From Collybiopsis luxurians FD-317 M1 (Eukaryota > Basidiomycota > Agaricomycetes > Agaricales > Omphalotaceae), in contig KN834755.1 of the NCBI GenBank assembly GCA_000827265.1, forward strand, positions 1,068,320 to 1,132,319: a stretch of DNA of 64,000 nucleotides. The letters run 5' to 3'. Positions 9,443-62,203 of this stretch are shown one piece after another. Both the position numbers and the translations under genes were made by a program. The notes under the pieces were generated by a model. That model saw only the letters and a list, made by a program, of their open reading frames with translations. It was not told where the DNA came from and made no database searches. The number at the start of each line of letters is the position of its first letter. Positions within the stretch are counted from its first letter, which is position 1.

Positions 9443-10698
9443 ATGTCAAATGCTACGGCTCCTGCGCTGAGCCCTGCTATCCCATTTCAACTTCTTCCTC
9501 CCTCCATCGCGCTCCAGCTTCAAATTAAGAGTTACATTTACGCCGGATCATCAGGGGTGAGCCTACCTAGGCACTTACCTTACTCTCGAGGTAGTATACA
9601 CTCACATTGTTCTAGATCTTAGTTTGGGATGTCCTATCCAACCTGACCGATGACTGGTATCTGTTCCATCTCTCCAAAAACAGATATGCCCTTGCTGCCT
9701 ACGTGCTATCCAGGTACTCTCCTTCTGAATCTGTGCTCGATGGTCCATGAACTCTGAAAGTGTACTATCAGGATTGGTGCAATGACCTACGTAATTGGGC
9801 GGACAGTTTTCACAAGTGGGTGACTTTGAGACCACATCCATTATCTCTTGTCTTAAAATCAAATTTGTAGCGGCCCCAGTGGGCAACTGTAAACTCGCAG
9901 ACACTGTTCTGGATTGTTTCTTTCCCATCGGAGTGGGGGGTTCTTGCTTGCTCTTCTTCCTCAGAGTGCGCGCAGTCTACATGGCTCAGAAGTATATCGT
10001 GGCCTTTTTTGCCTTCTTATGGGTCTCAGTGCTTGCTTCATGTCTGGTGGTTCCCTTTGGCACAATCGGAGTCAACATTCAGGACACACCCTATTGTGCA
10101 ACCGTTGCAACCAGAGACTTCGCTATAGCAACAGTTATCGTCCCTACAGTTTACGACACACTAGTCTTCTCAGCGATTTCATACAAGCTTTTGACTTACG
10201 GCTTTGCTCCCCATCGGAGCCTTCGAGACCGCATATTGGGATCTAATCTACCAGCATTTTCCAAAGCAATGTTTCGTGATGGCCAAAAATACTACCTGTA
10301 TGTCTTTTGCGGTGATATCTTTTATATTTTATTCAACCGACACTGAAAGGGTAACTGTTTTATCGAATATTGTGACAATTGCAATGTGGTTTGCCCGGGT
10401 CAACCCAGAGTATACCAGCATCTTTATAGGTCCGAATATGATGCTCACCAACATAATGGCTTGTTATGTCTATCGGCACACGGTTCTCGGTAGAATCCAA
10501 GACCCAGTTACCACGATAAATGCCCAGGTGATTCCCACAGAACAGAATGTGCTACCCCTCACCACACATCCTAATCTGGCGCAAGGAAGAAGTCGCCCTT
10601 CCACTGCAATGGATGGCATAGTTGTCGAGATGACTTCAATAACTCATGTGGATGAGGTTCACAAAATAAAGCCAAAGAGTTCCATGTTGTCACTGTAA
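9443..10698 (+). CDS. DUF6533-family seven-helix membrane protein
   Basis: Five exons close in phase: 9443-9556, 9616-9713, 9772-9815, 9871-10297, 10350-10698; 343 residues. Exon 2 carries the family opening (VWDVLSNLTDDWYLFHLSK). Hydrophobic helices follow (SCLLFFLRVRAVYMAQK, FFAFLWVSVLASCLVV, TVIVPTVYDTLVFSAI), then the signature LPAFSKAMFRDGQKYYL, another helix, and ITNIMACYVYRHT-like sequence (here LTNIMACYVYRHT) before a polar tail. The family is abundant in Agaricomycetes and of unknown function; its topology resembles a receptor, but no ligand can be inferred. The start follows a TATAAA by 39 bp. A close paralogue lies inverted at 17066-18299, on the far side of the NACHT-WD40 gene. 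Confidence 0.88.
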
Positions 10699-11435: not shown

Positions 11436-14400
11436 ATGGGTCAGTCATCTGACTATTCGCTTTGCCGAAACCCTGAACTCCAGATTCTATACAGGCACTT
11501 CGCCAACGCTCATCATTTCACATTGCAAAACCCGCAGTTTCATGCTACAATCATTAATGAACAAAAAACGAAATCAGGTACGCTTATTTATGCTATAATT
11601 CTAGTTCACGAAGATGGGAGTTCCTGCTGCGCAGAGTCCCTTTCGTGAATTGTGGTCATCGTCGTACTTCCTACTCCGAATGAGACTAATTAGCTCTCAT
11701 AGTAAACATCCGACAAAAGCTGCAAGAAAAGTTACATCCCATTGAAGGTGCCTGGCTTGATACATCCAAGGTTTGCTTAGATGGAACCAGAACAACGATT
11801 ATCAAGGAGATATCAGATTGGATCCAAGCTGATAATGCCCCTCAAATATTCTTTCTTTGTGGAGAGGCTGGAACAGGCAAATCTACAATCAGCCACACCA
11901 TTGGAAGGGCTTTCCGGCAATATCTTGGTGCTTTCTTTTGCTTCAACCGTGCATTTTCTGTCGAGCGTACTCCTAGCAAAGCCTTACGCACCATTGCATA
12001 TGAGCTTGGCATCTACGTTCCCAATATTGGAAAGGGATTGCTCAATTCCTTTCGAGATGATCCGCACATTTCAAGTAGTGTTAATGTTGAGGATCAGTGG
12101 AAAAATCTCATTGTTGGACCTGCTAAAATGACCGCCAATCCTTTTCGGCCAGTGGTTATTATACTTGATGCCCTGGATGAATCCGGGCCCCAACTCGAAG
12201 ATGGACCAAGAGATAGACTGCTCAATGTATTGTTCAATGGGGCTCAGGATTTGCCTAAAAATTTTCGGGTTTTGGTTACTGCTCGTCTGGAAAATGATGT
12301 GATTTCATATATCAAGAGCTTGTCAGTCAGTTCAACACCTAGAGTACAGTACATGAAAGATATTAATGGAACACCCGAAGATATCTACCGCTATGTGTGC
12401 AACAGGATGATGAAAAGAGGGGCTCTAGGAATGCTGGATGAAAATCAGTGTAGGATTCTCGCTGAGAAAGCCGGTGGTTATTTTCAATGGGCCTCAACTG
12501 TTTGTGAAGCTCTACGTGGAAAAGGCAAGGCAGGGCTGACAGTTTCAAAACGCTTTAAGCGTTTTCTGGACTCTGGTCCAACTCACAATGATTTACAGCC
12601 TCTTGATGGGCTGTACAAGTACATTCTTGAGGAATACTTTGACTACAATGATGAGGATGTTATCATAGAGTACCGGAGTGTATTAGCCCAAGTGTTAGCG
12701 GCATTTGAACCCCTGTCTATTACATCATTGAGGAAGCTTAGAATTGCAAGTGGAGTGGAAGGAGATGAAAATGGAGTAGAAGCAGTAGTTTCTTTTCTCG
12801 GCTCATTGTTAACAGGAATTGACAGTGTTGATACACCAGTAAAACCTGTACACACATCAATTTATGATTTTCTTTTGGATAAGAACCGCAGCACAAGTCA
12901 TGCAATAGATATAATTGAAGGGCACTGGATCCTGGCACAGGGAACATTGAGGCTAATGATGAAAGAACTTCACTTCAACATGTGTCACTTAGAAAGTTCT
13001 CACTTATTAAACTCACAAATTGAAAACCTCCAAACTAAAGTAGTTGAGAATCTCTCCCCTGATCTGCTGTATGCTTGCTGTGTTTGGGATCTACACCTGC
13101 AACAGATTAACCCAACAGATTCATGGCTCCCATTATTGAATCATTTTTTTGAACAAGTTTCACTTTATTGGATGGAAGTTTTGGGTACTGTGAAAAAAAT
13201 TGGTCTTGTTGCTCGGGGAGCAAGAAATGTAGTGGCATGGGTAAAGGGCTTCAAGGTTTGTCAGAGCCACTGCAATTGGTAGATATATTTACTTAACCAT
13301 TTTTTTAGGGCGCAATTGAGACTCAAAGATTACAAAACTTGGGGAAAGATCTGCAACAATTCACCCAAATATTTGGCAAAATGATTACAGAATCTACACC
13401 ACATCTTTATCTGTCTGGAATATCTTTCCTACCCAAAGGCTCAATTCTTACAGAAATATATAAGGAAAAATGCAACAGGATAGCAGTTGTTTGTGGGGGA
13501 TATCAAACTGATTGGCCATCCCAGGAGACTGTAATGTGGCATGGGAAAAAATCAAGTGTTATTTCAATTGCTTTATCTCCAGATGGGAAGAAAATTGTAT
13601 CTGGATCTATTGACAACTCGATGCAAATCTGGGATGCAGAAACAGGAGCTGCTATTGGAAGCCCACTCCAGGGACACACAAATCAAGTAACCTCAGTTGC
13701 CTTTTCCCCGGATGGGAGAAAGATTGTATCTGGGTCCAAGGACAGCTCATTGCGGATTTGGAATGGAGAATCTGGTGCAGCTATTGGAAATCCATTAAGA
13801 GGGCACTCACGTGATGTAACTTCTGTTTCCTTTTCGCCGGATGGTCAGAAAATTGCATCTGGGTCTTGGGACCATTCAGTGTGGATTTGGAATGCTGAAA
13901 CAGGAGCTGCCTTTGGAAGTCCTTTGAAGGGGCACACTCACTATGTAACCTCTGTTGCCTTCTCTCTGGATGGTAAAAAAATTGTGTCTGGATCTTTTGA
14001 CAAATCAGTGCGAATCTGGGATGCAGAAAGTAGAGCTACAATACAGGGGCCATTAGAAGGACACACAGAGCCTGTGACCTCAGTTGCCTTTGCACCAGAT
14101 GGAAGGAAAATTGTGTCTGGATCCCGAGACAGTCAAGTCCGGATCTGGGATGTGGAGGCTGGAGTTGCTCTTGGATATCCACTGCAGGGGCACACAAAGG
14201 AGGTAAATTCAGTTTCCTTTTCACCAGATGGCACAAAAATTGTGTCTGGGTCTGAGGACACCTCAATATTGATCTGGGATGTGGAAACTCAGGCTACAGC
14301 TAGAAACCCATTGAGAGGGCATGTTGGTTCAGTAACTTCAGTTGCCTTTTCATCAGATGGAAGTAGAGTAGTGTCTGGGTCTCGGGATGGTTCTGTGCGA

Positions 14401-15654
14401 ATCTGGGGTGCTGAAACAAGAAACACTGATGGAAATTCCTACCATCATGGACACACAGATTCAATAAACTCAGTTACTTTTTCTCCAGATGGACAGATCA
14501 TTGTGACAGGATCCTCTGACAAGTCATTACAGTTCTGGGATGCAGAGACAGGTGCTGATATTGGGAATCCATTGAGTGGACATGAAAAGGGAATAAACTC
14601 AGTTGTTTTCTTCGCAAAAGGGAAGAAAATTGTGTCTGCATCTGATGATAAGTCAGTGCAACTCTGGGATCTAGTGACTAGAGAAGCAATTGGGAATCCC
14701 CTAAAAGGACATACAAGTTATGTGACCTCAGTAGCTGTCTCCCCAGATGGTACAAAAATTGTATCTGGGTCCAGTGACAGCTCAGTGCGCATCTGGAATG
14801 TGGAGACAGGGATTGCAGCTGGAAAGCTCCTTGGGACACACCCAAACACAGTGTCCTCAGTTGCCTTTTTTCCAGATGGAAAGAAAGTAATATCTGGATC
14901 CTGGGATGCTTCAGTACAGATCTGGGACTGGAAGAGCGGAGCTCTCATTGGCAGCCCTATGAAGGGACATGCCAATGGAGTATCCTGTATTGCTGTATCT
15001 CCCGATGGGAAGAGAATTGTATCTGGGTCTTATGACAATACTCTCTGTATCTGGAATGCAGAGACTGGAATTGCAGTTGGGAATCCCTTGCGGGGCCACA
15101 CAGATGTTGTAACTTCTGTTGCTTTTTCTCCAGATGGAAGAAGAATAGTATCTGGGTCTTTTGACTGCACTGTACAAATTTGGGATGTAGAGAGTGGATC
15201 TGCTATTGGAGCCCCACTGGAAAGGCATACAAATGTAGTTACCTCAGTGGCCTTCTCTCCAAATGGTAAAAAAATTGCATCTGGATCTCAGGATTGCTCA
15301 ATACGGATCTGGGATACAGACACTGCAACTCTTTCATCAATTTCTTCTCATGAAGACACAGAAGCCACTGGGTCACAGCACTTGTATCAGTCTGCTTTCT
15401 GTACCCATCTCAGTCACCTTTTTATTCATTCTCATTCTTCTTTCTGTGATCTTCACCTGAATTCTGATGGATGGCTCTGCGGTTCTGATTCATCCCTTCT
15501 TCTTTGGATACCTCCGGAGTACCGTTTTTCCATTGTATTTCCCCCAACCCGAGTGGTGATAGACCGAAATGGGCAAACCACTCTGGATCTCAGCAATTTT
15601 GCTCACGGAACTCATTGGACTGAATGTCATGCAGATAATCATTCACTAGAGTGA
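11436..15654 (+). CDS. NACHT-WD40 (NLR-like) protein with 14 WD repeats
   Basis: Three exons in phase: 11436-11577, 11703-13255, 13309-15654; 1346 residues. A short N-terminal region of no known domain is followed by the linker LHPIEGAWLDTSKVCLDGTR, the P-loop GEAGTGKST (residues 101-109) and Walker B VVIILDALDES (about 198). A helical region follows, then fourteen near-identical WD40 repeats of 43-44 residues (about 649-1250), enough for two seven-blade propellers, and a C-terminal segment (DGWLCGSDSSLLLW). Members such as Podospora HET-E act as nucleotide-dependent switches in non-self recognition. Here no HET or other effector domain is visible at the N terminus. The repeats are highly alike at DNA level, as in fungal NLRs that diversify by repeat exchange. 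The 125-bp first intron is long for this window, so exon 1 is less certain. Confidence 0.92.
13558..15345 (+). repeat. 14 tandem 129-bp WD40-coding repeats
   Basis: Each unit encodes a version of VTSVAFSPDGKKIVSGS followed by an IWDAETG-like strand, usually 43 residues long. The period is almost invariant (one unit has an extra residue). Units 7, 9 and 11 depart most from the consensus. Confidence 0.93.
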
Positions 15655-17065: not shown

Positions 17066-18299
17066 TTAGAGAGATTTTTGAGGTCTTGATTTATGGACGT
17101 CATCTACATGGGTCAGTGAAGTAATCTTGATAAATATCCCATCCGTTGTATTGGAAGTGCAATTCCTGTGCTGTGTTGTATGATCCTGCACTGTAGGGAT
17201 CACTTGGGCATCCATCGAAACTGCTGGATCCCGTATTTTACCAAGCGCTGTATGTCGAAAGACATAGCATGCCATGATATTGGTGATCATTGTATTGATA
17301 ACGAGGAAGACATTGTGATAGTCTACATCGCCCAAAAAAGATGCTGCTGCAATTGTTGCAATATTGGACAGAATTGTTACCCTGAGTCAAACTCTCAAAA
17401 ACTTCTTGGCGCAAACAGAGGAAAGTGAGTTATCCTTACAAGTAATATTTTTGGCCATCACGAAGCATAGCTCTGGAAAATGCTGGTAAATTAGTCCCAA
17501 AAAGCCAACTTTTAATGCCATGAGACTGTCTGAAGCCATGGGACATTAACTTGTATGAGATTGCAGTGAAAACCACTGTGTCATAAACAGTAGCAACAAT
17601 TACTGTCGCTCTACCAAATTGTCTGCTTGTACAGCTTCCTACAATGGGTGGCGATGGTGTACTCGTGGAAGCGGGAATAGAGAGGCTTGCAGCAGGCAAC
17701 GAGATCGGTTCAGATGCTGCACTTGTGGAGACGGGAACAGTGAGGCTTGCAGCAAGCACTGAGATCCACAAGAAGGCCAATAATGCCGGTATATGCTTGT
17801 TTCCATTGTATACAGCATATGCTCTGAGGAGAAACAGCAAGGAAGAGCTGGAAATACCAACAGGAAGGAAGCAGTCTAGTATGATATTTTTGACACTGCA
17901 GCCTGCGACAAGTGAATCTGGAATTCCATTCTGAGAGATGGGGCAGTATAAGTAGTTGTAAGGTCACTGACTCTCATATACCATCCGTCCCATAACATAT
18001 ACCAATGTGCTCAACCTGAGAATCTATGAGTTGTCCGCACCTGAGGGCATTATGTAACATTGACACATACCTAGAAGTTATATAAATAATGAGGCCACAT
18101 TTTCTTTTGGTAACTCTAAGCAGGCGGTAGTCATTGATTGCATTGGACAGAACATCCCAAGCAAAAATCTTGAAATGTGAATCTCAGCCAATGATTAGGA
18201 ATAGCTAGGTTTAGCTAAGCTCACCCCCGATGCTATAGCCAATAGCTCAGTCTGGAGATCAAATTGGAGAGGAGGCAAATTGGAAGGTGGGAGACTCAT
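17066..18299 (-). CDS. DUF6533-family membrane protein, paralogue
   Basis: Five exons on the minus strand: 18225-18299, 18071-18168, 17982-18015, 17440-17930, 17066-17381; 337 residues. Exon 2 is 98 bp, exactly as in the paralogue at 9443-10698, and encodes FAWDVLSNAINDYRLLRV. The 34-bp third exon uses a GTATAT donor, the choice that keeps the frame; a 44-bp version matching the paralogue would shift it. The same helices and the motif LPAFSRAMLRDGQKYYL are present. The second half of the loop after LTVPVST holds a roughly 60-bp tandem duplication that adds about 20 residues of Ser/Pro-rich sequence, absent from the paralogue. Function unknown; the start gives MSLPPSNLPPLQFD. Confidence 0.82.
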
Positions 18300-22733: not shown

Positions 22734-24973
22734 CTCATTGACCTGGGCTCGTTTATTCTGTCAGTCTCACTCCGTCCGTTGGCCTTCCGTTTGCTCCTTT
22801 GCTCGTTTCTGCGTACCATCAGCACTTCGAAAATCGTATTCTTCTTCTGATTCTCCCTAGCTTCTCAAACACTGCTCCTGCCGCCGCCGCCGCCGCTGCT
22901 GTCGAATACTACCCAAAACCAAAAGTCTACTTATGTTTTCTTTTTCCTCCCGCTCGATGCTTTCTTGTACGCACCGCTCTCCTCATCATCATTCATCATG
23001 CAAAATCGATCATCTGTGTACTACGTTGCTGGCCCCTCCTCCTCTTCCCTTTCCCTTTTCTGCATGTACTTTACCATCGTCCGCTAGTACAGCGGTATCA
23101 TCTCGTAGTCTCTTCTCTAGGCCTTACCATCTTCTGCTCCTTCCAAAAATTACCTTACTACTCAAGTATTCCTTATCATCTGTCCGAGTCCGTCCGTCCG
23201 TCCGAGTCATGGCCTGGCCTGATAATCTCTTCATACGATACGTACGATACATACCATACCATACCATACCACATCATATATGCACGGGAGGTTTGTTTAA
23301 TGAACGAACCCGATTCCGATTCCACTTCGTCGTAATTTTTTTTTTTTTTTTTTTTGGCGGAATTCCGATACTTACAGTACCGCCTCTACGTACTGATTTC
23401 ATTGTTCAACTACTCTTTGTCGATATCTGACTCTCGCTGCATGTCAAATTAGTACTGATACTTTGCAACTTTACGTACATACCGAATTCAAGCACTTGAA
23501 TCTTCAAGCTTCAATGCTCGAAACTCTCAGTATACGCAAGGATGAGTCTGTAAAGTCTCATTCAGGACCTGTCGATGCTGATTCAGGGAAACAGGATTTA
23601 GAGACATGAAATAAAATGAGATTCACAGGCTAGCATTGGTGTGATCTACATATTGCACAAGCACAGTTCCGAGTCAAGGGAAGATGGCTTGATTGAGGAT
23701 AAGATAAAAGACGGTGGCAAAACTACTAATTGGACGGAGGTGAGAATTACTCGGGCGCCCGATTAGGCGCCCTCACCGGTCTCTTCCCCCACTCCCACCG
23801 CCGCACTGAGCAGCTCGCGTATACCGCGTCTCTAATCTTCTCCCACCTGTCACACCTACTTTTAGCGTTCGGCTTATCATGATAACCGCTCGTTCCAGGC
23901 TTGGGAAATCGAATCGCGCGAAGCCAAACTCCAGTCAAACCCGGATTAGACATAATCCTTCTGTTTCATTGTGTCTCATTCCTCCCATAGTCGTATCGCC
24001 TTATCTTATACAGCACATTTGGCAGACAACAAAGCTCATATAACTGTGCAGTTCTGCAGAGGAGGTTCTCAGAATACCATTGCAGCCTGGAAAGTCCACG
24101 TCAACATTTGTAGAGGTGTTACGTGAATCCTATTGAATTTGCCAAGGATGAGTATATGCGCACGTCAGTTCAATTGACCACGAATTTTGACGCGCTCTGT
24201 TGAACCGCGTTCATTACTGCTCTGAACACAGGAATGGTAAACCCCGATCATGCTGAGTTGTGGAAGTTTCGAAAGCCTCGACCTCTCCACCGTAAGGAAT
24301 ACTAGCTCGTCTGAACCTTTTCAATCGGTAGAGAGGGTAATGAGTAAGTAGCTAACCAACGGAACAAATCTAAATACTTACAAATGATCATCACTTTTTA
24401 GAAGACTGCTGTGACGAAAATTGGCTTTTTTTTTTGTGCTTGGGCTGAGAATGGGCAAGTCGACTGGTTAGCGAAGTAGAAGAAGCCGTTTCCTTAGCTG
24501 CCTGTCATCATCAGAAATGGAGAAGAGGGCAACGAACGATCTCGATGCTAAAGAAGGCATATGCATAAAGAATTCCTACTGCCTTTTTAAAGCGCGAGCA
24601 CCCTCGCACCCAAGAACTCCTTCGTCTTTAGTCTGAATGTTCCGTGCCTCTTGGGGAAACACCACATCGAATTTTAAACTGTATCCTAGACCGGCCCAGG
24701 TATTGTTTGTGCGGTTTTGGTGATGTAATACGATCTGGCACCGTTCCCGACACCCAAGTATCTACGGCTTTTCCTGGGTTGCCAGTTGTACTGTGCATCG
24801 AGGAAAACATTGTCATGAGGAACCGAAGAACCGACCAGCCAGTGGCGGTGCAGTTGAAAACGGGTTCACCCATCAGATCCGGTATTTGCTACAACTAAGC
24901 TGTTGACTTCCAATTCAAAATTCCTTCAAGATTTAAATGAGCCGAAGATTCGAACAGCGTTCTCTCCCACTCC
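22734..24973. other. 3' flank and intergenic, simple repeats
   Basis: Pyrimidine-rich sequence with short tandem repeats: GTCC units near 23192-23205, CCATA units near 23250-23270, a T-run near 23336-23356, and a GGGCGCC/GGCGCCC hairpin at 23753-23772. No gene is supported. Confidence 0.5.
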
Positions 24974-26701
24974 ATGCTGGTCCTTCTTCTTTCTGCACTA
25001 GCTCAGAGGGGTGTCGCTGCTTTCCCCGTTGCTGCAAATGCCACTGTGACTTGTCTGGCAGAGGATAATACGAGCGGCCAAGACTCTACTTCTCGTTCAG
25101 TGGTTGGTATCATCTGGAGTTGTGTGACCACAATCTTTGCATGTACCTGGGTAGCAGTTCATCCTAACCTTCCCTCAGAGGATGACTCAGATTGGGCCAT
25201 TTACCGGCGTAGAGCGCGCATATTGATCGTAGCTCTCATCGTCCCGGAATACATCATCTTATGGGCCGCTAATCAGTCACGATCTGCCAAGCTGGCGGTG
25301 CAAAAGCTTCGAGAGTTTCCCGCTTGTGAGTGTCCATGCTGGGCCTGGGAGTGAACTAACTGACCTTCAAAAGGTCGAAATTGGACAAAAACTCACGGGA
25401 TGTTTCTTGTTATGGGCGGGTTCGTGCTGGTCGATAATTCTGGAAAACGTCTGGGAGTGATACAACAGAATGATCTGATCAAGCTTCTTTCTAACGGCCA
25501 GGTTACATTTCCCGCTTTGTCTTCTTCTCAGATCATGGACAAAAGTAAAGGAGATGCGATAGCCAAGCTCCTTGTTTTGTTCCAAACCTCATGGTTCATG
25601 GTTCAGATTGTATCTCGAGCCATTCAGCATCTACCTATCACTGAACTTGAGCTTACAACCTTGGCCTTTGCCTCGCTCAATATCCTGACGTGCATGCTGT
25701 GGTGGCAGAAGCCACTTGACGTCCGGCATCCGATCCTGATAACGTTGCAGGGAGGGAAGTCAGTCAGTGAAAGTCTACCAGAGATGTGTTTCGCACGGCA
25801 ATCTCTGGTAACTTTCGACGAAGTCGACATCACGGATGCCTATGGGACAGAACGCTCACAGTCGCAAATGGACATACACTCTGTCCGGTCAGTTCACCGT
25901 GACATTTTCTTTCGAATTTTTCAATCACTTTCCAAAGGGTATGAACGATTCCAAGAGTCAATCCTTGAACTTCGCGAGGCAGAGCTTTGGGAATCGCTGA
26001 ATATAGTAACCGGTGCATTTCTGCGGCCTTGGGCTTTCAGACGTGGGGTAGATTCCACTGTAGTCAACACAGCCTTGACAACCACCTTTCGTTCCCCTCC
26101 ATCTGCGTCCGCTATTTCGACCCATAAGCGGTCTTCACCGAACCCCCGGTTCCTCGGATCTGAGCCTCGCAATTTCGACACACCGTCGTCCATTGGCGTA
26201 GCACCAATGGATACACTCAGTCTTGAGTTCGTTACGCGCGTGCCCACCTTCTATGGGGGGCCTCCCATGATCTATTATCACGGAGTGGGCTCGTCATACC
26301 CAATTGCGTTGGAGATGTTTATCGGGGCGGTCTTTGGCGCCATCCATTGCGTAGCGTGGACATTCCAATTTCCTTCTACAGTCGAGAAGGTATTATGGAG
26401 GAGCACTTCACTCTACATTACATGCTCACCAATAGCTTTGTGTGCTTTGTGGCTTCTGATAAGCCTGTTGCATCAACCTATAACATTCCAAGGTTCTCTG
26501 AGGAACTATCCCATACGCTCCTTCATTTCCTTGAAAATAGTAAGCCCTCTGGTTACTTGGATTCAGCCTTTTCGATTCATTTTTGTAATGTACATTATCT
26601 CGCGAGTTACTATTTTCATTCTCGCATTTGTTCTTCTTCGAGATCTTCCGAGTGGTGCCTTACAGGAGGTAGAATGGACAAACTTCATCCCTCATGTGTA
26701 G
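24974..26701 (+). CDS. Multi-pass membrane protein, cassette 1
   Basis: Two exons, 24974-25325 and 25374-26701; 559 residues. The N terminus looks like a signal peptide (MLVLLLSALAQRGVAAF). Helices follow in GIIWSCVTTIFACTWVAV, ILIVALIVPEYIILWAA, LLVLFQTSWFMVQIVS and LTTLAFASLNILTCMLWW. After a polar stretch of roughly 180 residues come three or four more, ending with the tail SGALQEVEWTNFIPHV. The family is expanded in Agaricomycetes; I know of no assigned function. A second complete copy (minus, 59331-60921) has an identical 352-bp first exon, and a truncated copy lies at 54484-54866. In all three a Gag-like/ISG12 gene follows about 1.2 kb downstream on the same strand, which suggests shared function or co-inheritance. 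Confidence 0.85.
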
Positions 26702-27927: not shown

Positions 27928-29179
27928 ATGATTATTCATGATCCGCTTCCAGAGTCTGAACTCCAGAGACGAATGGCTGTCTTGGCCCACGAATATCAGC
28001 AATCAGTGTATACAGGATCTGCGAGCGAGAATGTAGATAACTTCTTGAACGAGATCGAACATAACTTTCAGATGGCTGGTATTCCCCGCTCCCAGTGGAT
28101 GGATGTTGCGCTTCATTTTATGGCGTCCGAACCGCGAGCAGTCATGCGCGAACACAAGCAGAAAATTCGCAGCAGGGAGGACAATGAGCATAAGCACTGG
28201 GTCGTGTTCAAAACCCTTTTGAGGCAATGTCATGGTAAGTTATTTTCGCAACGGCCACTGAGGTTGAACGCTGCAATGTTGACTCTCTCATCGCGACAGC
28301 CACAGCCCAAAATGGTGAGTATGGTACAACATACACGGATGCGTTGAAGAAGGCCTGCTTAGTATGCTTTTAGAGGCTAACTTTCAGAGACAAATGACTC
28401 TTCTAGCGCACCGATATCAGCAGTCGACGTATACGGGATCTACGGGCGAGAATGTAGACAACTTCTTGAACGAAATCGAACATAACTGTCAGATGGCTGG
28501 TATTCCCCGCTCCCAGTGGATAGATGTTGCGCTTCATTTCATGGCCCCCAGGCCCCGAGCAGTCATGCACGAACACAAACAAACAATCTACAGCACAGAG
28601 AAGGGTCAGCATGAGCACTGGGCTGTATTCAAAGATGTTTTGAGAGAATTGCATAGTAAGCTGTTTCCGTTACGGTCAAAGTTGATTCCTTAACGCTGCG
28701 ATATTGACTTTCTCTATAACAGCGGCAGCTCAAAATGGTGAGTATAGTATATAGATGCGAAAAAGGCCTGCTGAGCGTTAGAACACTCACAGCCCCCAAT
28801 GATTCTCAAGACCCTTTCCTCGAAGCAGCCCGCCAAGGCATAGCTGTTGCTGGAGTGACTTACGCTGTAGGACCTTCCGTCATTCTGGGAGCTCTGAATG
28901 TTGTAGGGTTTAGTGCCTCCGGTGTCCTCGGTGGTATGTCCTCATCTTTCAACGGCTTTTCAGATCCTTTCACAATGCTTCTTCTCTTCAGGATCTTTGG
29001 CCGCGACCGCTCAATCGATTTTCTACGGGGGTGCCACCTCTGGCGTATTTTCCACTCTGCAATCTATTGCTGCTACCGGCGTAGTCGCGTCTGCTCCAGT
29101 ACTTGCCTTGGGCGCAGGAGCGGTAGGGCTCGCTTTTGGCGCTGGATTTTATCTATTCAACCATCGAAGGCAAGAGTAG
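27928..29179 (+). CDS. Gag-like/ISG12 fusion with duplicated N-terminal domain, cassette 1
   Basis: Six exons close exactly: 27928-28234, 28300-28314, 28374-28655, 28723-28737, 28793-28933, 28992-29179; 315 residues. Two tandem helical domains of about 95-100 residues share ENVDNFLNEIEH and QMAGIPRSQW, then a central F/M helix and a WxxFKxxLRxxH ending; this spacing resembles retrotransposon Gag capsid domains (inference). Each is followed by a 15-bp exon coding ATAQNG or TAAQNG. The C-terminal part (GVTYAVGPSVILGALNVVGF, then GGSLAATAQSIFYGGATSG, STLQSIAATGVVA) matches the interferon-induced 6-16/ISG12 family (Pfam Ifi-6-16), small hydrophobic membrane proteins linked in animals to mitochondria and cell death. 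Single-domain versions lie at 52467-53299 and 57344-58176, so an internal exon-pair duplication made this one. Confidence 0.85.
28300..28314 (+). other. 15-bp microexon, first copy
   Basis: CCACAGCCCAAAATG lies between a strong acceptor (GCGACAG) and a GTGAGT donor and keeps phase 1 on both sides. A second 15-bp exon, CGGCAGCTCAAAATG, occurs at 28723-28737 after the second Gag-like domain. Confidence 0.75.
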
Positions 29180-50455: not shown

Positions 50456-50956
50456 CTTCAATGTCTAGGAGGACGTTGAAATGCTGGATGCCTCTCGGCG
50501 CGACTATATATGAAGTAAGAGAAGTAAAGTGGAGCCGCTGTTAGTATGACTTGCATTCGAGAGCGTAAAAAACAGGCGTTCAGATAGATAACCGGTGCCG
50601 AGTCTGGCTTTGGCTGACTGATACAGCCGCTTGCATTCTGATTTTTTCAACGCTGTTATACTCGTATTTGCTTGCCCTATACCAAATCGTACGGAAACAT
50701 CCGACGACGCCGCTGTGGGTCGAAATCAACGAAATAGCGTTGAAAAAATCGCAACTGCCAAACTTTATGCCAACGGCTGTATACAAAATCAGAGTGAAGC
50801 CGACGAAGAACCGCCTTCGAGCTAGAAGTATCGGAGCCAGTAAATTTCGAGAGTCTACAGTATACAAGATATCAAAAGCAGTGCCCTAAGATTGATGAAA
50901 GGCTTCTCACGCCGCATAAATTGGTTGAATGGTGACTGCTGCAGTCAGACTTTGGA

Positions 50957-51193
50957 TTGCTTGAGTTTAATCACATAGATTGTGACCAGTTCATATATGC
51001 GCTGTACCGAGTTTTTATTTACCATCGTCAGTACGTAGACCAGGACTCCATATACAGATTACCAGCTGAATACAACTGGCCGCCGAGCTGCGGTAGTATA
51101 GCATGGGCGGCGTGGATTCCTTTCAATGAACAAAGATTCTGTTGTTATCAGCCTCCCGGCGAGTTGTTTGCCATTATGCAGTGTGACTCGTGA
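50957..51193 (+). CDS. Unrecognised open frame, intact only in the left copy
   Basis: A 78-codon frame containing YRLPAEYNWPPSCGSIAWAA and QRFCCYQPPGELFAIMQC, ending at a possible exon boundary. In the right copy (about 55810-56045) the same frame has three stops: CAG to TAG, TAC to TAG and TGG to TGA. A further open stretch, 51338-51571, may be another exon (its right-copy form reads INAPPEMDWEAELSLGIPF). I do not recognise the family. Confidence 0.3.
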   Translation: MLEFNHIDCDQFIYALYRVFIYHRQYVDQDSIYRLPAEYNWPPSCGSIAWAAWIPFNEQRFCCYQPPGELFAIMQCDS

Positions 51194-51949
51194 GTACTGT
51201 TAGAAACAAGCTCACTCAGTCAGAGAAGGCCTCAGAGAGGGGATCGATGAATGGAAAGAATCAATCAATCTACTCTACTACAAGTGCAGTATTAGAATAA
51301 CAAATATAGGAATGACTATGAAGAACATGAAATAACAATGAAGAGATGGGATAATATAAGGAATATGTATGAGGAAGCGGAAGTAAAGATTGGAGCGGAA
51401 CGGACAAGCAACCCATATGTCAATGTTTCTCAGCAAGTACTGTTGTTAGAGCTAAACCAAATTTTACACTTCCATGCAGTGGACAGTCATACATATATAT
51501 CAATGCACCTCCGGAAATTGGGAGGCAGAGCTTTCACTTGGGATCCCATTTGTGTTTCACAACTCTTTTGAACTCTACATTCGAGTATGACCCTCCAGAC
51601 ATTTCAAGGAGATCTCGATAATGAGCAACCTAAATTTGCTGCTGAAACTTGAGCTTCGATGGTAAACCCTAGAATGAAGTTCATCTTAGGAAATCAAGAC
51701 CGGGGTTTGCTGTTGCTATGTTACTACTAGGGTATCATTGAGCGCGGTTTTGGAACTGAGTGCACAGTACTCATAGGGTTTAATCACCCCGCTCTCCCTT
51801 TAGCATATTATTTTCCTACAGTCGGTGGTCGATTTGAAGAAAATTCCTGAACAGGCAGTGTAAAACTACATCCCTACTCTCTCCTATTAGTGTATGGTCG
51901 TAGATAATCATTAGCCTTTTAATCAAGATTCTAGATAGATGAAGATATC

Positions 51950-52367
51950 TAGCAAGAAAACCGGAGCCGGAGAGTCCTACAACAGTGAGAGCCGCGAGGA
52001 TAGTGCCACGAGCTGGTTCAGTGTAGATCACTTTGGTAACAACTACGCCACAGACAGCTGCTTAAAGGAAAGGATCGATTATTTGTAACATTGGTATTGT
52101 AATAAATATCCATGTGCTCGGCGATTTTGACTGTGGCTGTTCAAAGAGTAGTAAAATCTACTTACAATCTAACAAAAGTGGCTTCCCGTGCCGATTTCTC
52201 AAGACCGGTCTGAACACGTCCGACTGTCCAGGCTGTTTCTCTTTCATGTATAGAGATATTCGTGCATGACCCTTTGTGGCATGTGGGGCATAATGCGTAA
52301 CACAGCCATCCATTGCGATCGTCATCGGGGAATATCGACCTTTTCGATGTGCGCTCGAGATGTTGAG
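51950..52367 (-). pseudogene. Truncated ISG12-like gene, left copy
   Basis: The stretch GVVVTKVIYTEPARG to LTVVGLSGSGF corresponds to the first half of the ISG12 domain. An in-frame TAA lies at 52062-52064 where the right copy has CAA, the donor after GCTA is lost, and no second-half exon follows. Just upstream is a relic of the 15-bp microexon (CCACAGTCAAAATCG). Before that, an open exon-like segment at 52166-52367 ends in GTAAGT and encodes a Cys/His-rich stretch (WLCYALCPTCHKGSC). This may have been an ISG12 gene with a different N terminus. Confidence 0.6.
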
Positions 52368-52466
52368 CTAGATCAAAGCAACAGTTATTCTATAGGTCGA
52401 CAGTAGTTGTACAAGAAATCAGGCGTGTACTCGTATTTATAACGATGTACGGAATGTAGAAATATG

Positions 52467-53299
52467 TTAATTCCTTCGACTGGTTCGAACTAGATAAATC
52501 CCGACACCAGCAACAAGCCCAACCGTTCCAGCACCGAAGATGAGAACCGGAGGAGACGCGACTACGCCGGTAACACCAATGGATGTCAGGCTGGAAAATA
52601 AGCCAGTGGTATTTGCCCCATAGAATACTGACTCAGCTAAAGCCGCCCAGGAGCCTGCGGAGAGATAGACAGAATAAAAATGAAGGCCAGAAGCTATGCT
52701 CCAATATCAACGTATTGCACATACTAGCGGCGATACCAGAGCTTGTAAACCCCACAGCGCCTAGAGCTGTGACGATAAGGGGAGGTCCTGCGGTGTAGGT
52801 AACCCCTGCAACGACTACAGTACCTGTGGCAGCTTCGAGGAAAGGGTGTTCGGGGCCACTTCGTGTTGTAAACCATGTTAAGCAAGCTGACATCCTATCT
52901 CTGCAAGTATGTTACCCACCCCTGCGAGCTTTGGGTGTTGAAAGACCATTTGTATCCCAGTGTCCATCTCTGACGATACGAAGATGACTCACCATGCAAT
53001 TCTCTTAGGATAGACTTGAAGATGTCCCAGACTTCCTCTGGATTCTTTTCCTTGCTGTCAATGTTCTCCTTGAATCCGCGCATAGCCGGTTGCGTACTTT
53101 CTGACATGAAGTAGAGTGCAACATTCACCCACTGAGCGCGAGGGATGCCAGCCCTTTCAGAGATGCTTTCAATCTCGTCCAGGAAGCTATCTACGTTCTG
53201 GTCTGTGGATCCTGAATAGATGGTCTGCCGATGTTCGTCGGCCGCGATGGACAATCTTCTCTTCAATTCAGCCTCTGAAAGTGGTTCGTTGAGAGTCAT
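52467..53299 (-). CDS. Gag-like/ISG12 fusion, cassette 2 (left copy)
   Basis: Minus-strand exons 52993-53299 (307 bp), 52725-52886 and 52467-52654 (188 bp) close in phase, 218 residues. The first and last exons have exactly the sizes of their equivalents in the + strand gene at 27928. A single Gag-like domain (QNVDSFLDEIESISERAGIP, ALYFM, WDIFKSILRELHG) precedes an ISG12-like domain (GVTYTAGPPLIVTALGAVGF, then SWAALAESVFYGANTTG). The middle-exon acceptor is uncertain: the site used in the right copy (TTACAG) is TTACAA here, so the upstream acceptor at 52887, in an open frame, is proposed. The gene lies 1.2 kb downstream of the truncated membrane gene. Confidence 0.75.
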
Positions 53300-54483
53300 C
53301 TTAGAGTGCGGATGATGAAGGTTACAGAGTAAGGTTTCCTGGTTTTTCCTGTGTTTTATAGAACATCTTACTGTACATCTCGTAATGTTTAGAGTTTTTG
53401 CGGTAAGACTACTTGACTAGATCGGGACAATCCGACTCGCTAAAACCGTTTAGATGTGCTCCTGCATTTCCACATTGTTAGATGAAGTACTGCAGAAGAA
53501 TCGTCAACTCAGCTATCGGAAGGAGATTGGAAGATGACCTGGTAAACGTTATGGGTGGTTACAACTGAGTTGTACCAGACAGTGTATCAAGCCCCTTAGA
53601 AAAGCAGCCTGCCTAGGCCCAGAACTTTGCATCAAAATTGTAGTCATCAAGATAGATATACTCCACACACATTGACGCTTCTTTGTATCGGGGAATAACG
53701 GCCCCGAAATTTAGCTGTAACATCATGATCAGTTCTGGAATTTAGCGCCAACCAGCAATTCGACCGGAGCTTAGAATTATCCGGACGCCAGGGTCCTTGA
53801 TCGCGTACGTTGTATGTAGTCAAAGCGCTGTGAGTATACGAGTTATCAACTAGAAGAACCTCTTACTAAAGTCAGTTCGCCTTTGCGATCGAGATAGCAA
53901 TGTATTGTTGTGTTTTGCTCCCTTCCCTTAAGGATCATGGTATCTGCCCTGGAGGTGACCATCGATATCGAAGTTGCGGTCTAAACGGACTTTAGAGACT
54001 GCCTATGTAGAAGGGGAAGACGTAAGCAAAGAACAAAAAGGGCAAGGAGAGGTTGAGTACTCGTGTACTTTTGGTAGCCATCGCGAGAGAGTCTTTATAA
54101 ATGTGGAACTGGGCGGCTTGAGGTTTATATAGAGACCTGCGAGGTGAGAATGCTTTAAAGAGAAAGCTGGATAAGAATCAGTGAGTTTGAGCTGGAAATT
54201 CTGTCACTGTAGCTTATGCTGGGTTCATTAGAAGCAAAGATCCACCCAGCACCCTAGAAAAGGAAAGGAGAAGGTCCGGACTCGGAGCACTATCAATGTT
54301 CACTTGCAACTTTTACTAGAGGAGTCGAAGCATTCGGAAGGAGTGTTGGTAACTGAGGAGCCTTTGCACTGGTTATCTAGCCACTTCTTGGAGAAAATGG
54401 CGACCGAATAAATGATTTCTGGTTTTGCCATCTCGAGTAGGTAAACATCCAGTACAGCTCGATGAAACATTATCAGTCACCAA
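53300..54483. other. Cassette 2 intergenic region
   Basis: It corresponds to the 1.2-kb spacer of cassette 1 (26702-27927). It keeps the TATATAAA-type box near 54125-54132 and the relics of the small spliced frame, here with an in-frame stop. Confidence 0.5.
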
Positions 54484-54866
54484 TTACACATGAGGGATGA
54501 AATTAGTCCATTCTACCTCCTGCAAGGCTCCACTCGGAAGATCTCGAAGAAGAACAAGTGCGAGAATAAAAATAGTAAGTCGCGAAATAATATACACTGC
54601 AAAAATGACTAGATAAGGCTGGGTCCAAGTAAGCAGAGGGAGTACTATCTTGGACATAATGAAGAAGCGAATGGGGTACTCAATCAGGAGATGATTGCGA
54701 GGCCAAGCTAAAAGGCCTACCAGCAGCTGAATAGCCAAGATACTTATCGGGGAGCACGTAATGTAGAGTGAAGTGCTCCTCCATAACACCTGCTCAACCC
54801 TAGAAGGAAACTGGAATGTCCAGGCCACACAATGGATGGCACCAAAGACTGTTCCGATAAACATCT
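54484..54866 (-). pseudogene. Membrane protein, truncated at the duplication junction
   Basis: Only the C-terminal 125 or so residues remain, from MFIGTVFGAIHCVAWTFQF to VEWTNFIPHV. At 54866 the homology to the complete copy (59331-60921) stops and left-end duplication sequence begins, so the gene was cut by the tandem duplication. Confidence 0.9.
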
Positions 54867-55095
54867 GCATCTTCAATGTCTAGGAGGACGTTGAAATGCT
54901 GGATGTCTCTCGGTGCGATTATATAAGAAGTAAGAGAAGTAAAGTGAAGGTGCTGTTAGCGTGACCTGCATTGGAGAACGTAAAAAACAGGCGTTCGGAT
55001 AGATAACCAGTGCCGAGTCTGGCCTTGGCCGACTGATACAGCCGCTTGCATTCTGATTTTTTCAACGCTTTTTTACTTGTATTTGCTTGCCCTAT

Positions 55096-55521
55096 TAGGC
55101 CCCTACCCAACCTGTCTATGAAGTTTATATGAAAGCTGGTCTAATGAGGGCCTGTCGATAGACAGGCTGGGAGATCTCGGAGCTATTTGGGTGGTGCGCA
55201 CGGAGTTTGAATTTCTCGTCCCGACCATTACTATTTATCAAACAGTCAGCTTTGGGGACAGTGAAATAGTCAAGTATGTACTGAAATATTATAGATATTG
55301 GTATTACAATATAAAATTTTCTGTAAATGAGGATCTCGCAAGCATTTTGCTTAGTGCATTTAGCGGAATCAGTGGAAGTGCCGACGAGCCGACAGCTGTC
55401 AAGGGTACAAGTGCAAATTTCAAACTCCGTGCGCACCCATCTAAATTCCGAGATCTCCCAGCCTGTCTATCGACAGGTCCTCATTAGATCGGCCTTCATA
55501 GACAGGCTGAGTACGAGCCTA
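55096..55521. mobile_element. Mutator-like MITE with 9-bp target duplication
   Basis: A 426-bp insertion flanked by TTGCCCTAT at 55087-55095 and 55522-55530. The left copy of the segmental duplication has one TTGCCCTAT (50672-50680), that is, the empty site. Inverted termini of roughly 100 bp start TAGGC and contain CCTGTCTATGAAG and the hairpin CCTGTCGATAGACAGG. Long inverted repeats with 9-bp duplications are typical of Mutator-like elements. No transposase is encoded. Confidence 0.93.
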
Positions 55522-56789
55522 TTGCCCTATACCAAATCGTACGGAAACACCATCCGACGACGCCGCTGTGGGTCGAAATCAACGAAATAGCGTTGAAAAA
55601 ATCGCAACTGCCAAACTTTATGCCAACGGCTGTATACAAAATCAGAGTGAAGCCGACGAAGAACCGCCTTCGAGCTAGAAGTATCGGAGCCAGTAAATTT
55701 CGAGAGTCTACAGTATACAAGATATCAAAAGCAGTACCCTAAGATTGATGAAAGGCTTCTCACGCCGCATAAATTGGTTGAATGGTGACTGTTGCAGTCA
55801 GACTTTGGACTGCTTGAGTTTAATCACATAGATTGCGACTAGTACATACATGCGCTGTACCGAGTTTTTATTTACCCTCGTCAGTAGGTAGACCAGGACT
55901 CCATATACGGATTACCAGCTGAATACAACTGGCCGCCGAGCTGCGGTAGTATAGCATGAGCGGCGTGGATTCCTTTCGATGAACAAAGATTCTGTCGTTA
56001 TGAGCCTCCAGGCGAGTTGTTTGCCATTATGCAATGTGACTCGTAAGTACTGTTAGAAACAAGCTCACTCAGCCGGAGAAGGCCTCAGAGAGGGGATCGA
56101 TGAATGGAAAGAATCAATCAATCTACTCTACTACACGTGCAGTATTAGAATAACAAATATAGGAATGACTATGAAGAACATGAAATAACAATGAAGAGAT
56201 GGGATAATATAAGGAATATGTATGAGGAAGCGGAAGTAAAAGATTGGAGCGGAACGGACAAGCAACCCATATGTCAATGTTTCTCAGCAAGTACTGTTGT
56301 TAGAGCTAAACCAAATTTTACACTTCCATGCAGTGGACAGTCATACATATATATCAATGCACCTCCGGAGATGGATTGGGAGGCAGAGCTTTCACTTGGG
56401 ATCCCATTTGTGTTTCACAACTCTTTTGAACTCTACATTCGAGTATGACCTCCAGACATTTCAAGAAGGTCTCGATAATAAGAAACCTAAATTTGCTGCT
56501 GAAACTTAAGCTTCAATGGTCAAGCCTAGAATGAAGTTCATCTTGGGAAATCAAGCCGGGGTTTGTTGTTGTTATGTTACTACCAGGGTAACATTGAGTG
56601 CGGTTTTGGAACTGAGCGCGCAGTACTCATAGGGTTTAATCACCCCGCTCTCCCTTTAGCGTATTATTTTTCCTACAGTCGATGGTCGACTTGAAGAAAA
56701 TTCCTGAACGGGCAGTGTAAAACGATATCCCTACTCTCTCCTATCAATGTACGGCCGTAAATAGTCATTAGCCTCTTAATCAAGATTCT

Positions 56790-57250
56790 AGAAATTGTTG
56801 ATAGATGAAGATAACTAGCAGGAAAGCCGGAGCCGGAGAGTTCTACAACAGTGAGAACTGCGAGGACAGTGCCACGAGCTGGTTCAGCGTAGGTCACTCC
56901 GGTAACAATTACGCCACAGACAGCTGCTTGAAGGAAAGGATCGATTATTTGTAACATTGGTATCGTAATGAATATCCATGTGCTCGGCGATTTTGACTGT
57001 GGCTGTTCAAGGCAAGTTCAAAGAGTAGTAAAATCTACCTACAATCTAACAAAAGTGACTTCCCGCGCCGATTTCTCAAGACCGGTTTGAACACATCCGA
57101 CTGCCCAGGCTGTTTCTCTTTCATGTCTAGAGATGTTCGTGCATGACTCTTTGTGGCATGTGGGGCGTAATGCGTGACACAGCCGTCCATTGCGATCGTC
57201 ATCGGGGAATATCGACCTGTTCGATGTGCGCTTGAGATCTTGAGCTAGAT
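56790..57250 (-). pseudogene. Truncated ISG12-like gene, right copy
   Basis: Same arrangement as 51950-52367: DPFLQAAVCGVIVTGVTYAE to SGSGF without the left copy's stop, but no second-half exon. The upstream exon-like segment (about 57043-57240) is open here too, although its C/H pattern has changed (for example C to R). Confidence 0.55.
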
Positions 57251-57343
57251 CAAAGCAACAGTTATTCTATAGGTCGACAGTAGTTGTACAAGAAATCAGG
57301 CGTGTACTCGTATTTATAACGATGTACGGAATGTAGAAATATG

Positions 57344-58176
57344 TTAATTCCTTCGACTGGTTCGAACTAGATAAATCCCGACACCAGCAACAAGCCCAAC
57401 CGTTCCAGCACCGAAGATGAGAACCGGAGGAGACGCGACTACGCCGGTAACACCAATGGATGTCAGGCTGGAAAATAAGCCAGTGGTATTTGCCCCATAG
57501 AGCAGTGACTGAGCTGCAGCCACCCAAGATTCTGCGGAGACGTAGATAGAATAAAAATGAAGGCCAGAAGCTATGCTCCAATATCAACGTATTGCACATA
57601 CCAGCGGCGATACCAGCGCTTGTAAACCCCACAGCGCCTAGAGCTGTGACGATAAGGGGAGGTCCTGCGGTGTAGGTAACCCCTGCAACGACTACAGTAC
57701 CTGTGGCAGCTTCGAGGAAAGGGTATTCGGGGCCATGTCGTGCTGTAAATCATGTTAAGCAAGCTGACATCCTATCTCTGCAAGTATGTTACCCACCCCT
57801 GCGAGCTTTGGGTGTTGAAAGACCATTTGTATCCCAGTGTCCATCTCTGACGATACGAAGATGACTCACCATGCAATTCTCTTAGGATAGACCTGAAGAT
57901 GTTCCAGACTTCCTCTGGATTCTTTTCCTTGCTGTCAATGTTCTCCTTGAATCCGCGCATAGCCGGTTGCGTACTTTCTGACATGAAGTAGAGTGCAACA
58001 TTCGCCCACTGAGCGCGAGGGATGCCAGCCCTTTCAGAGATGCTTTCAATCTCGTCCAGGAAGCTATCTACGTTCTGGTCTGTGGATCGTGAATAGATGG
58101 TCTGCCGATGTTCGTCGGCCGCGATGGACAGTCTTCTCTTCAATTCAACCTCTGAAAGTGGTTCGTTGAGAGTCAT
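57344..58176 (-). CDS. Gag-like/ISG12 fusion, cassette 3 (right copy)
   Basis: Minus-strand exons 57870-58176 (307 bp), 57602-57742 (141 bp) and 57344-57531 (188 bp) close in phase, 211 residues. All three sizes equal those of the + strand gene. One Gag-like domain (MTLNEPLSEVELKRRLS, FLDEIESISERAGIPRAQW) is followed by GVTYTAGPPLIVTALGAVGF, GIAAESWVAAAQSLLYGAN and a short basic tail (VRTSRRN). A microexon like that of cassette 1 could lie in the first intron but is not needed for the frame. The complete membrane gene lies 1.2 kb upstream on the same strand. Confidence 0.8.
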
Positions 58177-59330
58177 CTTAGAGGGCGGATGATGAAGGTT
58201 ACAGAATAAGGTTTCCTGGTTTTTCCTGTGTTTTATAGAACATCTTACTGTACATCTCGTAATGTTTAGAGTTTTTGCGGTAAGACTATTTGACTAGATC
58301 GGGACAATCCGACTCGCTAAAACCGTTTAGATGTGCGCCTGCTTTTCCACATTGTTAGATGAAGTACTGCAGAAGAATCGTCAACTCAGCTATCGGAAGG
58401 AGATTGGAAGATGACCTAGTAAACGTTATGGGTGGTTACAACTGAGCTGTACCAGACAGTGTATCAAGCCCCTTAGAAAAGCAGCCTGCCTAGGCCCAGA
58501 ACTTTGCATCAAAATTGTAGTCATCAAGATAGATATACTCCACACACACTGACGCTTCTTTGTATCGGGGAATAACGGCCCCGAAATCTAGCTGTAACAT
58601 CATGATCAGCTCCAGTGTTCAGCGCCAACCAGCAAGTCGACCGGAGCTTAGAATTATCCGGACGCCAGAGTCCTTGATCGCGTACGTTGTATGTAGTCAA
58701 AGCGCTGTGAGTATACAAGTTATCAACTAGAAGAACCTCTTACTAAAGTCAGTTCGCCTTTGCGATCGAGATAGCAATGTATTGTTGTGTTTTGCTCCCT
58801 TCCCTTAAGGATCACGGTATCGGAGTTGCGGTCAAAACGGACTTTGGAGACTGCCTATGTAGAAGGGGAAGACATAAGCAAAGAACAAAAGGGCAAGGAG
58901 AGGTTGAGTACTTGTGTATTTTTGGTAACCATCGCGAAAGGGTCTTTATAAATATGGACCTGGGCAGCTTGAGGTTTATATAGAGACCTGCGAGGTGAGA
59001 ATGCTTTAAAGAGAAAGTTGGATAAGAATCAGTGAGTTTGAGCTGGAAATTCTGTCACTGTAGCTTATGCTGGGTTCATTAGAAGCAAAGATGTATCCAG
59101 CACCCTAGAAAAGAAATGGAGAAGGTCCGGAGCACTATCAACGTTCACTTGCAATTTTTACTGGAGGAGTCGAAGCATTCGGAAGGAGTGTTGGCAACTT
59201 GAGGAGCCTTTGCACTGATTATCTAAGCCACTTCTTGGAGAAAATGGTGACCGAATAAATGATTTCTGGTTTTGCCATCTCGAGTAGGTAAACATCCAGT
59301 ACAGCTCGATGAAACATTATCAGTCACCAA
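58177..59330. other. Cassette 3 intergenic region
   Basis: Homologous to the cassette 1 spacer, with a TATATAAA-type box near 58972-58984 and a frame-shifted relic of the small spliced frame. Confidence 0.5.
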
Positions 59331-60921: not shown

Positions 60922-62203
60922 GGGGGGAAGAGATCTCGCAACTCTTCGCAAACTCTCCGGCTCATTTAAAACTCGAATTGAGAGAATCTTCGAATCAGAA
61001 TCTACAGCTTCTTAGGCAAATTTGAGAGCAATGCTGTAGTCACTCACCAGAACAGATGATCGTGATCGACGGTTCTCCTGTCAACAGTGCCACCACTCAC
61101 GTCTCCGAGACAATTCTTCCAGGGTACAACATACCCTTGAAGCTCTAACAGCACTCGAAAGGCCGATGGACACTCGCAATGATTCCTGAGGTCTTTCGGG
61201 GTGAAGAAGCGAGCGAGATGTTTGACACTCAGATATGCAGGAATCAGACATGAGCGAAGAATAGTACGCGCTGTACAGTCACAGTGGGACAAGCACCGGT
61301 TAGAGAACGAAGCGCCTTGTTGATAACAGGAGGATGGAGAGAAACAAAGTGGCGGCTTAAAATTGTGTATATTGATCTGGAAATGTGAAGGAAGGAGAGA
61401 GGGCGGAATAGAGGATGCGATGTAGTTCGAAGGGCAGCACCTCGAATCTTGAGCTTGAGCGACTACAACACCTCGGGCAGGAAGTTTGCGTATGAAGCTT
61501 TGAAGGGGTAGGACGGGTTACAGACAGTCACATGATTTATATCTGATAGCGTAAGTCAGATTAGATAAGATGAAATCATCGAACGGCACTACGTAGCCCA
61601 GAGCCAGAGTTCCATGTACATTGTACATGAAGGAGGTCGACGACCAGATCTAGTGTTTACCCAAGCTCAGCGTAGACTGGCCTCTCGGGATCTTCCCAAG
61701 TGAATCTCGATGCGATCTCGCCTTTTGGAAAAGCTAAAAACGAGTTTACGATCACCCAGTGAGCACATTGGACTTTGGCCTGCAGTATCGTTCTATATAT
61801 TGCAGTACTTCCTATTTAAGTAATGAATCCTGAACGTGCTGATTTCCCGTAGATAGAATGGAGTATGATTTGGTTTCTACGAGAGTTTCCACTTCGATCT
61901 TGACAGGTACTATGCGACGTTCTTATCTGGAGAAAATGCCTTCGGGGGTTGTCTATATTCAAGTTCACGTAGAATATTCACGAGCGGTAGTAGTCTCACT
62001 TACCTTTTGAAATAATCTGAAGCTTGCAATCGTTTCGTTCGGAGGAGATGCACTCGATGGCAACAGAACAAGGGAAAATAGAAGGACACTCTCGGAAAGG
62101 TTTTGTCTGCTTGCCGAGTTGGTCTCCATATGGCTAAAGACATTTCAGCGCTCATGAGAGCAGTAACTATCACATTTTACACACGTGTAGGCAGTCGTGG
62201 CTC
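60922..62203. other. Intergenic
   Basis: Upstream region of the cassette 3 membrane gene. A minus-strand open frame at 61044-61292 has several cysteines but no recognised domain. Nothing else is supported. Confidence 0.45.

Follow-up and report, generated by a model that had tools for sequence, protein, structure and literature searches.

What is a membrane domain of the Ifi-6-16 (ISG12) type doing in a mushroom, behind a domain whose predicted fold resembles the capsid lobe of a Gag protein? The question is raised by a gene, here called gene A, at positions 27928-29179 (+) of a 64,000-nucleotide stretch of contig KN834755.1 of Collybiopsis luxurians FD-317 M1; this stretch is the window referred to below, to which all coordinates belong. 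A preliminary description had read the product as a domesticated Gag-like oligomerisation module driving an ISG12-like membrane effector. We find that the fusion is real and unusual and that both halves were sensibly named; our addition, judging from profile comparison and intron position, is a homology between the capsid-like half and an exon belonging to a family of genes found widely in mushrooms.

Structure of gene A and its relatives

Gene A consists of six GT-AG exons that join into an open frame of 315 codons plus a stop:

27928..28234, + strand: exon 1, the first capsid-lobe-like N domain, ending at a phase-1 intron
28300..28314, + strand: exon 2, a 15-nucleotide exon of phase 1-1, at which the deposited protein is identical
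28374..28655, + strand: exon 3, the second N domain, a symmetric phase 1-1 exon with 76% DNA identity to the first unit (self-BLAST)
28723..28737, + strand: exon 4, the duplicated 15-nucleotide exon
28793..28933, + strand: exon 5, the linker and the first half of the Ifi-6-16 domain
28992..29179, + strand: exon 6, the second half of the Ifi-6-16 domain and the stop codon

The product is identical (100% over 100% of the length) to the deposited C. luxurians FD-317 M1 protein GYMLUDRAFT_55538 (P0001), so that an independent gene caller agrees with this splice model, and, to the extent that a second gene model can show it, the six-exon structure is correct. Residues 1-102 and approximately 105-205 are two copies of one unit of about 100 residues, which align without gaps over 84 residues and, compared with each other, gave a ratio of nonsynonymous to synonymous change (dN/dS) of 0.27 at a dS of 0.58. 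The second unit has a 15-nucleotide exon of its own and is itself encoded by a symmetric phase 1-1 exon, which explains how its duplication could leave the frame intact. The spliced 315-residue frame and the two tandem helical domains first described therefore both stand, the latter as a repeated unit, and gene A encodes two helical N domains of about 100 residues followed by the Ifi-6-16 domain, with nothing else in the product.

Gene A is a member of a small family, and every other known member has a single N domain. Relatives with a single N unit and the same architecture are P0002 (Gymnopus androsaceus), P0003 and P0005 (Rhodocollybia butyracea), P0004 (C. luxurians) and P0006, and the architecture is kept at 46-56% identity among Gymnopus, Rhodocollybia and Collybiopsis. 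Among the 7,997 candidates scored, which were those with the most words in common, the fusion was detected only in these three genera and one further assembly, a list that may be short.

Assignment of the C-terminal domain

The last ~100 residues of gene A are hydrophobic, with 19-residue windows of mean hydropathy of at least 1.6 at residues 222-254 and 279-309; on this hydropathy the domain may be embedded in a membrane, and the AF2 block confidence is 29-44. The protein carries GFSASG, SLAATAQS and YGGATSGVFSTLQS, a pattern kept among relatives, and the hydrophobic domain with GF(T/S)xSG and S.AA..QS motifs that had been claimed is thus borne out. Taken in isolation, the C terminus matched PF06140 at 23.6 bits (E=5e-5, positions 4-79 of 84), short of the curated cut-off of 29.1 bits. 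The same profile matched eight of the nine members of an alignment of relatives, A2, at E<=1 (best 1.1e-12), three of the nine being Ifi-only reference proteins, and PF06140 is a precomputed annotation of P0003 and P0005.

Profiles of the family reached further. One built from four fusion-family members retrieved Ifi-6-16 proteins of Paraphysoderma, Bolinopsis, Adineta and Rotaria, including those of rotifer and ctenophore, and the A2 profile, with its three reference rows among nine, retrieved human IFI27L1 (2loq) from the PDB at E=1.6e-8 over profile positions 124-203. A PDB sequence search with gene A alone returned chance rows only (best E 1.1) and did not recover 2loq. When the C termini of seven fusion-family members were compared by hhalign with eight Ifi-6-16 domains from outside the family, the score was 94.7, against a maximum of 22.4 in 200 column shuffles and 13.3 for the reversed profile. 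These results support the assignment of the C-terminal domain of gene A to Ifi-6-16, as had been proposed, and the PF06140 similarity on which the fusion idea hung is present. A six-frame PF06140 search of the C. luxurians genome, which reads exon by exon, was empty and was silent for the controls too; because an intron splits the domain, this is not taken as absence. A Pfam match to PatG_C in one of the nine A2 members (21 to 22.8 bits, cut-off 25.9) was set aside as chance.

Gene A thus shares with the FAM14/ISG12 family (PF06140), of which IFI27L1 is a solved member, the hydrophobic domain and the core GFTSSG...GS.AA..QS...G...FS..QS. Animal ISG12 proteins are short and essentially the Ifi domain alone, whereas here that domain is a tail behind one or two capsid-lobe-like domains. 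Animal proteins of the ISG12 type are found in mitochondria or the endoplasmic reticulum (ER) and take part in the antiviral response and apoptosis. Porcine ISG12A has been described as mitochondrial (PMC5578005).

Homology of the N domain to a widespread mushroom family

In the C. luxurians genome the N unit is found in three genes of the window (gene A, which has it twice, and paralogues B and C, described below) and at a single locus far from these, on contig 42 (L005/L013). The latter encodes a 380-residue protein identical to the deposited GYMLUDRAFT_75472 (P0015), which has 256 matches at E<=1; the 120 listed include proteins of Lentinula, Coprinopsis (CC1G_08754), Ganoderma, Russula, Suillus and Jaapia, genera that we take to span the class Agaricomycetes. 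Members of this family have a capsid-lobe-like N domain, a long linker of low model confidence and a Gly/Ala-rich hydrophobic C terminus with the conserved stretch 'APVWLLNACNALDFL...SAGAGGA'. The most hydrophobic window lies in the last third of the protein in all 120 listed relatives, and a mean hydropathy of 1.6 is reached somewhere in 111 of them. Pfam gave no convincing domain for 44 family members, a PDB search with the family profile returned two rows (best E 2.3), and a literature search for CC1G_08754 found nothing.

Eight fusion-family N units compared by hhalign with those of 76 of the 120 listed P0015 relatives scored 59.7 over 77 columns, the maximum of 200 column shuffles being 20.2 and the reversed profile giving 12.2. 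(A simple pattern located the domain edge, yielding N profiles from 76 and C profiles from 103 of the listed proteins; alignment A3 holds 44 of the 120.) In both gene A units and in P0015, moreover, the domain ends at a phase-1 intron nine codons past a conserved Phe. Profile match and intron position together show at the sequence level that the N domain of the fusion family is homologous to the N-terminal domain of the P0015 family. A search of the C. luxurians genome with the P0015 N domain found P0015 itself and, weakly, the gene A units (E=9e-4 and 0.09), with B and C unmatched, and P0015 appears to be single-copy. Because P0015 is the more widespread, we infer that its family lent the N exon to the fusion family and not the reverse.

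The two families part company at the tail. A homology between their C termini that had seemed apparent by eye was rejected, hhalign giving a probability of 0.26%, with 16 of 50 shuffles scoring as high and the reversed profile scoring higher; one N domain is therefore combined with two hydrophobic tails between which no relationship is detectable. The P0015/CC1G_08754 family thus shares with gene A a homologous N domain, the codon and phase of its intron, and a hydrophobic Gly/Ala-rich C terminus, and differs from it in its long low-confidence linker, in a tail without profile similarity to Ifi-6-16 (probability 0.1-0.3%) and in being apparently single-copy.

Predicted resemblance of the N domain to Gag capsid lobes

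AlphaFold models of both families, the fusion family and the P0015 family, found their best structural matches in Arc, Ty1 capsid (CA) and retroviral CA lobes. Taken together, the structural matches of the two comprised Arc, dArc1, Ty1, PNMA2, Copia and several retroviruses, with Drt2 and the C-terminal domain of Ty1 CA (CA-CTD) among the best structural (VIA) matches. No Foldseek match of either model had an E below 0.001, and a viral structure library gave no relevant row. A match of the A2 N region to the designed helical bundle 6egc (E 0.011) was taken as noise of helix composition.

Sequence comparison gave no link to Gag. Pfam at E<=1 assigned no gag family to any of the 44 P0015-family and nine A2 proteins. 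The C. luxurians genome has 101 Retrotrans_gag and at least 150 Retrotran_gag_2 matches, and a test set was drawn from its highest-ranked copies, consisting of 18 Retrotrans_gag, eight usable Retrotran_gag_2 and five Ty3_capsid fragments. Loci whose matched stretch contained a stop were excluded (12 of 30 Retrotrans_gag; L055, L059 and L060 of 12; L051 and L052 of seven), as was L057, whose stretch was empty. Against resident Ty3-type gag the N domain scored 15.8 and 17.5 in hhalign, over 31 and 13 columns, each time with two of 100 shuffles reaching that score, and against resident copia-type and Ty3_capsid fragments between one and 14 of 30 shuffles were as high.

Controls among the gag families themselves indicate how these negatives should be read. 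Retrotrans_gag and Retrotran_gag_2 were not linked to each other (four of 30 shuffles as high), indicating little power over such a distance, and Retrotran_gag_2 against Ty3_capsid reached a probability of 5% over 14 columns with none of 30 shuffles as high; the strong match of Retrotrans_gag to Ty3_capsid is no independent control because two loci are common to both sets. Since such controls fail, the negative result against gag is weak evidence. In the window itself, Pfam found no reverse transcriptase, protease or integrase in 8 of the 35 open frames (at least 150 residues), a search that did not extend to long terminal repeats or smaller frames.

Prediction thus supports a fold of the N domain like that of a single Gag CA or Arc lobe. 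Of the Gag-like character claimed at the outset, the fold has support as a prediction, and a link by Pfam or by profile to resident gag, or a significant Foldseek E, does not appear. A recent domestication of Gag is not supported, because the closest relative detected is a mushroom gene of wide distribution, seemingly single-copy here; most likely the domestication, if true at all, long predates the fusion.

Comparison with known capsid-derived host proteins shows both likeness and difference. The predicted fold of the N unit is like that of Arc, dArc1 and PNMA2, the domesticated Gag capsids of animals, and gene A also has two tandem lobes. It shows no sequence link to these proteins, however; its two units are copies of one lobe and not a CA N-lobe followed by a C-lobe, its relatives are single-lobed, and a membrane-type domain follows the lobe. 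Yeast offers Ty1 p22 and Drt2, restriction factors built on Gag CA-CTD, which, on the predicted fold, resemble the fusion protein in being fungal host proteins on a single CA-type lobe. DRT2 is described as derived from the Ty1' GAG gene (PMC10951436) and p22 as part of Ty1 Gag (PMC12530519), whereas the N domain of gene A has no detectable sequence kinship to resident gag.

Paralogues, relics and neighbouring genes

The window holds further copies of the fusion gene in a recently duplicated region:

57344..58176, - strand: paralogue B, one N domain and an Ifi-6-16 domain, 211 residues (exons 58176-57870, 57742-57602 and 57531-57344)
52467..53299, - strand: paralogue C, one N domain and an Ifi-6-16 domain, near-identical to B (deposited as a 214-residue model, P0004)
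56790..57220 (approximate limits), - strand: a decayed copy downstream of B with N and Ifi traces (E=0.018 at 56814-56942; N trace by eye)
52000..52350 (approximate limits), - strand: the same relic on the downstream side of C, carried along in the 4.2-kb duplication
55522-59713 and 50672-54869: the two copies of a 4.2-kb segmental duplication, 94.5% identical, each with one fusion gene and a relic
24925..26701, + strand: companion gene M, membrane-protein-like by eye, with a second copy at about 59331-60977 (-)

In paralogue C (52993-52850, -), the acceptor of the first intron, CAG in B, reads CAA, and it is there that the deposited P0004 departs from the model derived here. Between B and C there are 13 nonsynonymous and three synonymous changes over the stretches compared (5/1 in exon 1, 2/0 in exon 2 and 6/2 in exon 3, the first 8 bases of exon 2 being excluded), a small number, in which nothing points to constraint on these young copies.

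Companion gene M has been co-duplicated with the fusion gene, and a third copy at about 54480-54870 (-) is seemingly truncated; Pfam gave no match for the main frame of the two full copies. Between the copies of the duplication, at 55096-55521, lies a short repeat in inverted orientation (matches of 88 and 120 bp at 87.5% and 79% identity), perhaps a small mobile element. A fungal NLR-like gene with a NACHT-type STAND domain and WD40 repeats, split over two adjacent frames, occupies 11690-15654 (+), 12 kb from the fusion gene (NPHP3_N E=2e-21, NACHT E=3e-4, 14 WD40 stretches). It is flanked by inverted similar stretches at 10087-10665 and 17090-17650 (65% DNA identity), and the tested frames overlapping these had no Pfam match. 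No sign that the NACHT-WD40 gene is a partner of the fusion gene was noticed, though no dedicated look was taken.

Possible roles of the fusion protein

We propose, with a probability of roughly 0.45, that the lobe clusters or targets an Ifi-6-16 membrane effector. The lobe would self-associate or bind a partner, and this association would cluster or place the Ifi-6-16 domain, which, by analogy with animal ISG12/IFI6, may insert in an internal membrane (mitochondrion or ER) and there alter membrane permeability or the cell-death state. Valency would be higher in gene A, where the lobe is doubled. That the same lobe is found with two tails not detectably related speaks for a module that controls or places a membrane-active tail. 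That oligomerisation drives the membrane effector, as initially suggested, is a reasonable supposition. Copy gain and loss at the locus would suit a role in conflict with a virus, a transposon or non-self, but are also expected of any unstable cluster.

A somewhat unlikely alternative is that the protein is a peptide-binding adaptor, in which the lobe acts like the Arc N-lobe in binding partner peptides and the Ifi-6-16 domain is a mere membrane anchor, with neither oligomerisation nor effector action. We also doubt, a little more strongly, that the N domain is a small bundle of helices, unrelated to capsid and like it by coincidence, since two families, separately aligned and modelled, gave the same class of top matches; this explanation concerns the fold and is compatible with an adaptor or with a chimaera, so that our confidences in these readings do not add to one. 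It is quite improbable that the family is a lineage-specific chimaera without selected function, put together when exon shuffling placed the N exon onto an Ifi-6-16 gene and multiplied by local duplication. The decayed copies and recent duplication, the mostly nonsynonymous changes between B and C, the altered first-intron acceptor of C and the narrow distribution, as far as searched, would all fit such an origin, but the architecture has been kept across three genera at the identities given above, and the dN/dS of the gene A units is low. Least probable is a transposon or virus restriction factor whose lobe co-assembles with and poisons the Gag particles of resident retrotransposons in the manner of Ty1 p22 and Drt2, the Ifi domain serving as a membrane tether, an idea favoured by the structural matches to Drt2 and Ty1 CA-CTD, the many genomic gag matches and the Gag-derived DRT2 precedent, and opposed by the lack of detectable similarity between the N domain and resident gag.

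Returning to the lobe as a controller of a membrane effector, a broader form of the proposal, which we regard as distinctly speculative, is that a class of mushroom host proteins joins a capsid-lobe domain to differing tails that act on membranes, one type (P0015) being widespread and the other (Ifi-6-16) young, and that the tail is triggered when the lobes assemble on a membrane.

Implications

Ifi-6-16/ISG12 proteins have been studied mostly as animal interferon effectors. Our searches of the literature turned up no functional study of fungal Ifi-6-16 proteins, the other matches being animal or cell studies, and none on 6-16 in basidiomycetes; among the matches listed for domesticated gag in fungi or basidiomycetes, no title concerned such a fusion. 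In a fungal secretome study, the sole mention of PF06140 is a table row beside Ferritin_2 (PMC10051545). A fungal Ifi-6-16 protein with an added domain of oligomerisation type would make the ancestral membrane activity testable where no interferon system operates. That a widespread mushroom gene has the capsid-like lobe hints at an old Gag-like host gene, to stand beside Arc/PNMA of animals and Drt2 of yeast. If the broader proposal is true, the class of lobe and tail proteins would give the death-fold and amyloid signalling modules, which serve innate immunity elsewhere, a counterpart derived from a capsid.
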